Shown here: positions 28,618 to 31,511 of the stretch, in pieces
Layout: each line of letters begins with the position of its first letter
Numbering within the stretch: position 1 is the first letter of the stretch
Assembly: GCA_903921365.1 (NCBI GenBank)
Contig: CAIXPS010000381.1
Coordinates: 1 to 39,465 of the forward strand
Reading direction: 5' to 3'
From: an uncultured bacterium
GTDB taxonomy: Bacteria; Chloroflexota; Anaerolineae; J036; Brachytrichaceae
Length of the DNA: 39,465 bases
Notes under the pieces: generated by a model
What the model was told of the DNA's origin: nothing
Database searches by the model: none
What the model saw: the letters and a program-made list of their open reading frames with translations, nothing else
Made by a program: the position numbers and the translations under genes

Positions 28618-29115
28618 ATGGCGACAATAGTTTCGCGCAGAGAGTTTTTGAAGAGCATGGGTTTGGTTGGTGGGCTGGCTTTGAGTAGCGTTATCGTTGC
28701 GGCGTGCGGCGGGGGGAGCGCACCGGCGGCGACAAGCGCACCGGCTGCTGCGCCGGTGACCCTCGACATTGCTTCAAAGGGCGAAGAACTGGTGTACGAC
28801 AAGAATACACTTGAAGCCCCGGCCAATTCGAAAATCACATTGAACTTGAAGAACAACTCCACGGCGCTCTCGCACAACTGGGTGCTGTGCAAGCCGGGCA
28901 CAGCCGACACGGTTGCTACAGATGGCATGGCTGCTGGCGACACCAAGAACTATCTCAAGGATAACGACGCCAACGTGATCGCCCATTTACCATTGATTAA
29001 GCCTGGTCAGACTGGTTCCGTCACCTTCAATGCGCCCGCACCCGGAGCCTATCCTTTCGAGTGCACCTTCCCTGGTCACAATGCGCTGATGAAGGGCACG
29101 TTGACAATCAAGTAA
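28618..29115 (+). CDS. Type 1 blue-copper protein (azurin/auracyanin-like), Tat lipoprotein
   Basis: A small electron carrier of 165 residues. The N-terminus has a consensus Tat motif SRREFLK (6-12), a hydrophobic stretch and a lipobox ending at Cys30, then an Ala/Pro-rich linker. The mature domain has the cupredoxin ligands His86 (ALSHNW), Cys149, His154 and Met158 in 'FECTFPGHNALMKG', giving C-x4-H-x3-M, the azurin spacing. Tat export fits a protein that folds with its cofactor inside the cell. In Chloroflexota, auracyanins carry electrons between alternative complex III and oxidases or reaction centres; the partner here is not in the window. AAAAAGG precedes the ATG. Confidence 0.93.
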   Translation: MATIVSRREFLKSMGLVGGLALSSVIVAACGGGSAPAATSAPAAAPVTLDIASKGEELVYDKNTLEAPANSKITLNLKNNSTALSHNWVLCKPGTADTVATDGMAAGDTKNYLKDNDANVIAHLPLIKPGQTGSVTFNAPAPGAYPFECTFPGHNALMKGTLTIK

Positions 29116-29155
29116 CGGGAAGTAACGGGTTTTGATATGAAGCCCGATAAACAAC

Positions 29156-29185
29156 GAGAGCCAACGACGCCGAACGTTGGCTCTC
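29156..29185 (+). terminator. Hairpin downstream of the cupredoxin gene
   Basis: GAGAGCCAACG (29156-29166) and CGTTGGCTCTC (29175-29185) form a perfect 11-base stem with an 8-base loop, 40 bases after the cupredoxin stop. The sequence that follows is purine-rich (AAAGCAAAAGGAGGAGAAG) instead of T-rich, so it may protect the mRNA end or need a factor to terminate. Confidence 0.6.
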
Positions 29186-29354
29186 AAAGCAAAAGGAGGA
29201 GAAGAGGAGGTCCCACCCTGACTCTAGTGCTTTCTTTATAACGCTTTTGGTTGATCTCTCCATGACGTTCGGCCTACGAATCCCCTACGGTTGACTCTGC
29301 TCCTGAATCTGCACTAAGACATTTGAACTGGGCGCGCGCAGGCTGCGCATGCAT

Positions 29355-29360
29355 TATCAT
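29355..29360 (+). promoter_or_regulatory. Candidate -10 box of the M28-like gene (leaderless geometry)
   Basis: TATCAT ends seven bases before the ATG at 29368, with no ribosome-binding site between. The arrangement repeats that seen at 13021, 13048 and 37617. Confidence 0.35.
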
Positions 29361-29367
29361 GCAACGC

Positions 29368-30621
29368 ATGACATCACTCGAACACTTTCGCGCGATTGCT
29401 GTTGGGATTGGTCCGCGCAGCAGCGCCAGCGAAGAAGAAACAAAAGCAGCTGATTACGTGGCGGAGCAATTGACCGCATATGGTCTGACCCCGCAGAAGC
29501 AACACTTCCTGAGCGCGGAATATACCTATGCGCCGCACATGCTGTATGCCGGGCTAGGCTTGCTCAGCCTCTTCCTGTTCTGGCAGACGCAACCGGTCGG
29601 CGCCGCCGCTGCTGTGCTCATCATGGTCACGGCGCTGATATCCATAGCGCTGGAATTACAACTGCGACCGAATCTGTTGCGCTGGTTGCTGCCCATTGAG
29701 CGCGGCACGAATGTCATTGTCGATATTCCCCGCGCCGATGCGCCTGCAGAGGGCGATGGCGCAGCCTCAGCCGGTGTGGGTGGTAAGAAGATCATCGTTA
29801 CGGCGCATCTCGACGTGCATCGCAAACCCGCTATCTTCATTGCGCTGGGCGGCGTGAAAGTGCTGCCGGCGCTGTTTCTGGCGGGCGAGATTGCCGGCGC
29901 GGTGTTGATTGTGCTGGCAGCTATTGGCGTGCCCGTATCCGTCTCCATCCTGCGCCAGATCGCGCTCGCGCCGGGTCTGGTGTTTCTCGCGCTTCTGGTG
30001 GTGATGTTTCTCGCCAATCGGTCGCCTTACGAGAAGGGCGTGGGCGATAACGCGGGCGGCCTTGCTGTATTGTTGAGCGTCGCCGAGCGATTGAAGACTA
30101 CGCCCCTGGCGCATTCGGAAGCGACACTCGTTTTCACAGGCGCGGAAGAAGCCGGCTGTTATGGAGCGCAGGCGTATTTTGCATCTCGGCAAGATATGCA
30201 GCATGATACTGTGCATATCGTTGTTGATGCCGTGGGAGCGCGGGGAACTGCACCCGCTATCGTTCGCGCCGAACGATACGTGAGCACTGTGGCCAGTGAC
30301 GCCAAGTTGCTGGCGATCGCGGACGCGATTGCATCCGCCCACGCGGAATTGAGTGTCACTCAGTTGCCTCAGATCGCAGGGCGCGGCGAACTCACCCTGA
30401 GCGCAAGCTTGTTGCTCCCGGTGATCCCAGTGATTGGCGTGACTTCAGTGGCAAAGGATGTGCCGCCGCCGGCTGAAACGATCGAACCCATTGAGCCAAT
30501 TGAACCCATCGATCCAGATCAGTCGTCCCTACAACGCCACGAGTCGTTTCTCTGGGAGTTGTTACAAGGCATCGATGCATCAGCAGCAGGCGATACTGCA
30601 CCCGCGTCCATGGCAGCCTAA
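29368..30621 (+). CDS. M28-peptidase-like protein with inserted transmembrane segments
   Basis: A 417-residue relative of M28 zinc aminopeptidases. The N-terminal helix region 'AIAVGIGPRSSASEEETKAA' fits the family. Zinc-site motifs are present as VTAHLDVH (His, Asp), GVGDNAGG (bridging Asp), TGAEEAG (catalytic Glu pair) and VVDAVGA. Two hydrophobic hairpins are inserted: one before the first strand (about residues 54-92) and one of about 60 residues between the first His and the bridging Asp. The family's last ligand motif HTPxDT is replaced by PPPAETIE, followed by a short IEP repeat. So it is membrane-embedded and its catalytic status is doubtful. The ATG at 29368 is chosen because a -10-like box sits seven bases upstream. 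Confidence 0.8.
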   Translation: MTSLEHFRAIAVGIGPRSSASEEETKAADYVAEQLTAYGLTPQKQHFLSAEYTYAPHMLYAGLGLLSLFLFWQTQPVGAAAAVLIMVTALISIALELQLRPNLLRWLLPIERGTNVIVDIPRADAPAEGDGAASAGVGGKKIIVTAHLDVHRKPAIFIALGGVKVLPALFLAGEIAGAVLIVLAAIGVPVSVSILRQIALAPGLVFLALLVVMFLANRSPYEKGVGDNAGGLAVLLSVAERLKTTPLAHSEATLVFTGAEEAGCYGAQAYFASRQDMQHDTVHIVVDAVGARGTAPAIVRAERYVSTVASDAKLLAIADAIASAHAELSVTQLPQIAGRGELTLSASLLLPVIPVIGVTSVAKDVPPPAETIEPIEPIEPIDPDQSSLQRHESFLWELLQGIDASAAGDTAPASMAA

Positions 30622-30653: not shown

Positions 30654-31511
30654 TTGAACCCAGCCATTAACAGCGGCAGGCGATTGTTCGTCGTCCTGCT
30701 CGTTATCGCCATGTGCGCCGGGTGCGCGCGCATGGAGACGCCGAAGGTCACACCCGTGATCACCACATTTCGCGTCATTGCCGATGGTCCCACGGCGCCA
30801 TTGCTGAAGGCGCTCACTGCGGCCTATACCGATCTGCACCCGACGACTGCCTTCAACATGCAGTCCGCAAACAACCAGGCATCGGTCGATGCGCTGTATG
30901 CCGGGCAGGCCGATCTGGCCGGGGTGTCATTGCTTCCGCCTGCAGCGCCTGACCAGTCCTCGCTATGGGTGACCGATCTCGCCATCGACGGCGTCGCGGT
31001 CATTGTCAACCCGGCCAACCCAATCGACACACTGAGCCTGCCAGAAGTGCGCGATCTGTTCGCAGGTGTGCGCACGCGTTGGAGCGACTTTGGCGTCGTC
31101 GGCCTTGGCGATATCGATGTGGGCGTGCGCGAGGAGGGCGATGGCGCGCGCGATACATTCGATGACCGTGTGATGGACGGCGCGAAGCTGGGGCTGAACT
31201 GCATCGTGCTGCCATCCGCAGAAGTGGCGATGAACTTCGCGGCATACCAGACCACCGCCGTTGCCTATGTCTCTCGCGCGCGTATCACCGACACGGTCGC
31301 CCCGCCGGTGAAGATGATCGGTGTTGACGGTGTGCTGCCCACAAGGGCAAACATTGCCAGTGGCGCCTACCGGCTGTCGCACACGCTCAACCTGGTAGCG
31401 CTGTCTGAACCGCAGGGCGAGTTGCGCCAGTTCGTGGCGTGGATGCTTGGCAAAGACGGCCAGGCAATCGTTGGCCAGCTAAACTACGTTGAATTGACGC
31501 AGGCGAAATAA
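30654..31511 (+). CDS. PstS-like periplasmic/extracytoplasmic binding lipoprotein
   Basis: A 285-residue lipoprotein. A signal sequence with lipobox AMCAGC anchors it at the membrane. The remainder resembles PBP-like phosphate or anion binding proteins: 'VIADGPTAPLLKALTAAYTD', 'VDALYAGQADLAGVSL', 'DGVAVIVNPANPIDTLSLPE' and 'VRDLFAGVRTRWSDFG', the last a hallmark of PstS-type proteins (LS..ei..IF.G...W). The usual SxG-S/T ligand-binding loop is less clear, so phosphate is not certain. No permease is nearby. The start is a TTG at 30654 with AAGGG ten bases upstream. It follows the M28-like gene by 32 bases. Confidence 0.75.
   Translation: MNPAINSGRRLFVVLLVIAMCAGCARMETPKVTPVITTFRVIADGPTAPLLKALTAAYTDLHPTTAFNMQSANNQASVDALYAGQADLAGVSLLPPAAPDQSSLWVTDLAIDGVAVIVNPANPIDTLSLPEVRDLFAGVRTRWSDFGVVGLGDIDVGVREEGDGARDTFDDRVMDGAKLGLNCIVLPSAEVAMNFAAYQTTAVAYVSRARITDTVAPPVKMIGVDGVLPTRANIASGAYRLSHTLNLVALSEPQGELRQFVAWMLGKDGQAIVGQLNYVELTQAK

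Follow-up and report, generated by a model that had tools for sequence, protein, structure and literature searches.

Nicastrin, nicalin, and the transferrin receptor are non-catalytic M28-like proteins in which an M28-derived domain has been kept for binding after catalysis was lost. Solved structures of M28 enzymes have the zinc site 1 His and the site 2 Asp close together in the chain, at His85 and Asp97 in 1f2o and at His97 and Asp117 in 1amp (PMC7522609, Table 1), such that the two sites are 12-20 residues apart, and His is present at sites 1 and 5 in every Zn-bound M28 structure surveyed (PMC7522609). Multi-spanning M28 peptidases have also been described, among them Fxna/ERMP1, which have nine transmembrane segments (PMC11120530). 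None of the papers found in a search of the open-access literature dealt with hairpin insertions in M28 proteins. Here we analysed a gene of this kind from an uncultured bacterium of the phylum Chloroflexota, located in a 39,465-nucleotide stretch of DNA that we refer to as the window. The features of the locus are collected in Table 1.

Table 1. Features of the hairpin-type M28 locus and its neighbours, in window coordinates
Feature	Coordinates	Strand	Basis
Cupredoxin gene, lying upstream in much of the family	28618..29115	+	Pfam 6.5e-15; synteny
Hairpin-type M28 relative gene	29359..30621	+	Open frame; Pfam Peptidase_M28; MQRM start common to congeners
Predicted membrane hairpin 1, residues ~53-104, two predicted TM segments	29524..29679	+	Family hydropathy; profile alignment to YwaD 6hc6
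AHLD, zinc site 1 His147 and supporting Asp149, kept	29803..29814	+	Alignment
Predicted membrane hairpin 2, residues ~156-217, two predicted TM segments, between site 1 and site 2	29833..30018	+	Hydropathy; H-to-D gap in homologues; position versus YwaD
GDNAGG, bridging Asp227 (site 2)	30043..30060	+	Alignment
Glu260 (general base) and Glu261 (site 3), kept	30145..30150	+	Alignment
Asp287 (site 4; VVDAVG), kept	30226..30228	+	Alignment
PPPAETIEPIEPIEPID replacing the site 5 WHxPSDT motif	30463..30513	+	Alignment; no hidden motif in other frames
PBP_like_2 (PstS-like) lipoprotein gene, conserved downstream neighbour	30654..31511	+	Pfam 1.4e-21; adjacent in family f1

Predicted membrane hairpins within an M28 domain

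The open frame at 29368-30621 specifies a product of 417 amino acids; an upstream start at 29359, MQRM, is kept in congeners and suggests three additional N-terminal residues, for a product of 420 amino acids. A scan for sigma-70 promoters gave no hit, fewer than the 1.8 expected by chance on average. Pfam Peptidase_M28 (PF04389) covers residues 222-313 (2.3e-13, 50.8 bits versus a gathering cutoff of 21.3), and a phmmer search with the window protein matched the M28 aminopeptidases of known structure 2ek8 and 6hc6. An AlphaFold2 model, generated from the window protein and one homologue, had a pLDDT of 36 and a pTM of 0.22, too low for the model to be of use. Together with the hydropathy of the protein and an Ile in the alignment column of the site 5 His, the Pfam match bears out the original prediction, made from the sequence, of an M28 relative with inserted membrane hairpins and a replaced last zinc ligand.

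The site 1 His (H147) and the site 2 Asp (D227) of the window protein are separated by 80 residues versus 12-20 in the solved enzymes, which corresponds to an insertion of about 60 residues. Hydropathy between the two residues peaks at 2.8, in agreement with the prediction that about 60 hydrophobic residues separate the first His from the bridging Asp, and the second hydrophobic hairpin that had been predicted ahead of them is likewise found, as a stretch at residues ~53-104; the TM segments of both hairpins are called from hydropathy only. When a profile of the homologues was aligned to YwaD, the N-terminal helix, the SQNV...AHxD strand, and the sequence from GANDN onward all aligned, which places hairpin 2 in the loop joining zinc sites 1 and 2. 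The hairpin 1 region (profile positions 49-109) faced residues 94-223 of YwaD (6hc6), and hairpin 1 is thus located where YwaD has ~130 residues of additional sequence, ahead of the SQN strand. We take these additional residues to be the protease-associated domain.

To place this architecture in context, homologues were gathered from relatives, the family, the class (396 genomes), and the phylum (400 genomes). The gap from the site 1 His to the site 2 Asp was 72-94 residues in all 98 aligned homologues, and mostly 79. Simple patterns were applied to 16 more homologues, of which 15 belong to other classes of the phylum and one is encoded on a Mycolicibacterium farcinogenes plasmid; both motifs were recognised in 12 of the 16, with gaps of 72-89 residues. 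As the insertion is family-wide, it is not peculiar to the window gene, and the predicted hairpins are a normal trait of a wide M28 subgroup. The original prediction had taken the insertion for the anomaly; this view has to be revised, as what sets the window gene apart is a lineage-specific loss at the active site. Pfam and NCBIfam yielded only generic matches for the hairpin-type architecture, and no relatives were found in the viral contigs scanned. The plasmid homologue (L167 1105-2325) lies beside alpha/beta hydrolase and enoyl-CoA hydratase genes.

The window protein lacks a signal peptide, and Lys and Arg are somewhat more frequent in the hairpin flanks on the catalytic side than in the hairpin loops. 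From these two features, the second of them a weak signal, the catalytic domain is most likely oriented toward the cytoplasm.

Loss of the site 5 ligand

Alignment of the window protein to its homologues revealed that AHLDVH provides H147 and D149, AEE provides E260 and E261, and that, with GDNAGG and VVDAVG also found, the zinc ligands at sites 1-4 and the general base Glu260 are present, in keeping with the expectation that most zinc-site motifs would be kept. Site 5 is gone: the Ile in the column of its His falls inside PPPAETIEPIEPIEPID. The replacement of the HTPxDT region and the short IEP repeat, both described in the original prediction, are seen in the protein. The IEP repeat is missing from the sister species, and at the DNA level it was not scored as a tandem repeat. 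We also considered whether the missing site 5 His could be due to a frameshift or to an assembly or sequencing error. Since no WHxxSD motif was found in the other frames of the window gene, and since the loss is common to four separate assemblies, this explanation was ruled out.

Hairpin 2 exits the fold right beside zinc sites 1 and 2, so the cleft should be near the membrane, and residues 224-227 read GVGD, similar to the GxGD motif found in presenilin-type proteases. Both observations would be compatible with an intramembrane-cleaving peptidase in which the hairpins would carry membrane helices up to the zinc site, one of the functions originally offered, but we consider this highly improbable. 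The retained zinc-site residues are all found in soluble M28 segments on either side of the hairpins, with none in the hydrophobic stretches, and the active sites of intact relatives look like those of ordinary M28 enzymes. The GVGD string is itself the M28 site 2 motif, falls outside the hydrophobic stretch, and is absent in the sister protein L003. The window protein sequence has no HExxH motif, and site 5 is lost.

The ligands and catalytic residues (His, Asp, Asp, Glu, Glu, Asp/Glu, His) are all intact in 77 of the 98 aligned homologues, and the subgroup therefore probably descends from a normal enzyme. Altered sites were found in the remaining 21, one of which, L025, is counted as altered only through a contig end; on a quick tree of the 97 homologues without L025, the altered states need about eight changes. 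A mixture-model tree groups the window gene with three genes from the same genus, L003, L004, and L006, in one clade (support 97/99). Site 5 is lost in all four members of this clade, site 4 in three (Cys or Thr in L003, L004, and L006), and the general-base Glu in two (Ser in L004 and L006), and the NDNASG motif has become GDNAGG in all four. Unlike its three sisters, the window protein has lost only the last His. The fifth species of the genus, L008, is intact, and its position adjoining the altered clade has support of 44/58, a value that neither establishes nor rejects the placement. The predicted loss of the active site, not the insertion, is thus the lineage-specific feature of the window gene.

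The main rival to loss of catalysis is that the window protein has an altered metal site but remains active as a hydrolase or transferase, either with one metal at sites 1, 2, and 4 or with an acidic residue of the IEP loop replacing the site 5 His. His147, Asp149, Asp227, Glu260, Glu261, and Asp287 are all kept, and since only one of the five ligands is gone and the general base is in place, a one-zinc or altered-zinc activity stays conceivable. Site 5 was the weakest contributor to zinc binding in the simulations of PMC7522609, and human GPAA1, an M28 relative in which Tyr occupies site 5 and Pro site 1 (PMC7522609), makes an altered site conceivable as well. Against this, the same-clade sisters lack site 4 and two of them also lack the general base, and the loop that replaces site 5 is unconserved in the clade and nearly absent in L006, so no substitute ligand is common to the clade. 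We therefore regard residual enzyme activity at an altered metal site as unlikely, if worth keeping in view.

Ligands have been lost elsewhere in the hairpin-type subgroup. In another genus of the same family, g3, L028 and L029 are without essentially every ligand and have kept the hydrophobic segments; a His in the site 5 column of L029 is probably an alignment chance, and the L028 protein had no match in Pfam. Within the family, the genomes of two species, G006 and G013, encode proteins without nearly all ligands. The genes L046 (8385-9428) and L047 (8046-9104) have lost nearly all zinc ligands and kept the hairpins, and the lipoprotein gene still follows them. In L126, L127, L128, and L130 (genus f46/g88), the site 3 Glu is replaced by Thr and the site 5 His by Arg, and this loss is apparently independent of that in the window clade. 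The general-base Glu is replaced by Lys in L012, a change that we call recent, as its close relatives L010 and L011 are intact.

Gene neighbourhood and gene loss within the family

Upstream of the M28 relative lie genes for a cupredoxin, a small opposite-strand protein, and an S49 peptidase, and downstream lie those for the PstS-like lipoprotein and a DUF84 NTPase. A 12-pair stem-loop lies just 3' of the cupredoxin gene, at 29155-29186 of the window, and has a terminator-like score on the minus strand. The window contains no transporter genes to accompany the PstS-like lipoprotein gene.

The M28 and lipoprotein genes overlap by 4 nucleotides in several intact family members and in the ligand-less L046. 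Based on this adjacency and overlap, a dedicated partnership between the two proteins was considered. However, the lipoprotein gene is present in 27 of the 28 family genomes, and in nine family genomes no M28 gene lies beside it, which argues that the lipoprotein is independent of the M28 protein, and the partnership was downgraded. In the genome G010, the M28 gene is a 77-codon stub (L188 3076-3309, G010:C39), of which only the N-terminal part matches and which overlaps the lipoprotein gene by 4 nucleotides; it looks like the product of a large internal deletion. Given the nine genomes where it is missing and this stub, the M28 gene is not essential in the family.

Selection on the altered genes

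A dispensable gene may simply be on its way out, decaying without function. The absence of the M28 gene beside the lipoprotein gene in nine genomes, the stub in G010, the loss of nearly all ligands in G006 and G013, and a C-terminal part that looks relaxed would each be in line with this. The genes of the window clade, however, have full-length open frames in four species at ~50-58% identity. In 300 runs of a neutral simulation, in which the window gene was evolved to its observed divergence from L003, a mean of 9.4 in-frame stops arose and no run was without a stop, whereas the real genes have none.

Codon models were then used to compare constraint along the gene. Omega for the four altered genes was 0.16 overall, and by region it was 0.074 for the hairpins, 0.165 for the N-terminal and middle catalytic parts, and 0.24 for the C-terminal catalytic part. 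Two sets of intact relatives gave 0.12-0.14 overall, 0.10-0.13 for the hairpins, 0.11-0.15 for the N-terminal and middle parts, and 0.09-0.16 for the C-terminal part; since synonymous changes are near saturation and significance was not assessed, these values are rough and serve for comparison. Purifying selection on the altered genes continues, and the hairpins of the altered clade, with an omega below that of intact relatives, show no sign of relaxed constraint. The C-terminal catalytic part, which held site 5, looks to be under relaxed selection. With omega well below 1 and the frames open, we consider decay without function improbable, and somewhat more so than an altered metal site.

A probable membrane-tethered pseudopeptidase

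Ligand loss extends across the window clade, and the reading frame is under purifying selection, the two features by which a pseudopeptidase would be recognised. Our preferred reading, to which we assign a probability of about 0.6, is that the window protein is a membrane-tethered pseudopeptidase, derived from the hairpin-type M28 subgroup and still in transition. In this subgroup, two TM hairpins would be spliced into the catalytic domain of an M28 zinc peptidase, hairpin 1 between the N-terminal helix and the SQN strand and hairpin 2 in the loop between the site 1 His and the site 2 Asp, and would tie the active-site cleft to the membrane surface. By analogy with M28 chemistry, intact relatives may trim N-terminal residues off peptides or proteins at the membrane. 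The alignment and tree show that the site 5 His was lost, and NDNASG changed to GDNAGG, in the ancestor that the window species shares with its three congeners. With a key zinc-binding residue gone in the window species and its three sisters, the peptidase role probably ended, and the window protein is probably no longer an aminopeptidase. Constraint persists on the hairpins and on part of the former metal site (His147, Asp227, and Glu261), and the membrane-anchored protein would now serve in binding or as a scaffold. Of the three functions originally offered, a pseudoenzyme is thus the best supported, by the clade-wide loss of site 5, the further ligand loss in sisters, and the selection on the hairpins.

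More tentatively, the lineage may be passing through a stepwise transition, from an intact enzyme through loss of site 5 to loss of site 4 and the general base, with nearly all ligands lost on another branch. The hairpins, rather than the cleft, could have become the selected part, in a membrane receptor or a chaperone-like partner as in nicastrin and nicalin; we think this possible and put it well behind pseudopeptidase status itself. What emerges is a widespread M28 architecture in which predicted hairpins separate the ligands of zinc sites 1 and 2, and which is not set apart by general family models. Within a single bacterial family, the enzyme, the probable pseudoenzyme, and the loss of the gene can be followed as natural steps, which makes the role of the non-catalytic part testable.

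Comparison with known systems

The soluble M28 enzymes (Bacillus YwaD 6hc6, 2ek8, and 1amp) align with the family profile at the N-terminal helix, the SQNV strand, AHxD, GANDNASG, EE, and the H-P-x-D-T region. In these enzymes, sites 1 and 2 are 12-20 residues apart and a site 5 His is present, whereas the window protein has two inserted hairpins and no site 5 His. The hairpin-type homologues of the same phylum and of Mycolicibacterium (WP_221853559.1, annotated as an M20/M25/M40 family metallo-hydrolase) have the same architecture and spacing as the window protein; unlike the window clade, 77 of the 98 aligned keep every catalytic and zinc residue.

Fxna/ERMP1 likewise combine an M28 domain with several transmembrane segments. 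The ERMP1 helices are located outside the M28 domain and not between zinc sites 1 and 2, whereas the hydrophobic stretches of the window protein are inside it. GPAA1 also has a membrane-associated M28 domain with a replaced site 5 His (Tyr in GPAA1; PMC7522609). It differs in being eukaryotic, in the lumenal location of its M28 domain, and in having the site 1 His replaced as well, whereas the window protein keeps site 1. Nicastrin, nicalin, and the transferrin receptor, too, are eukaryotic, and they carry a terminal TM anchor and no hairpins inside the domain.
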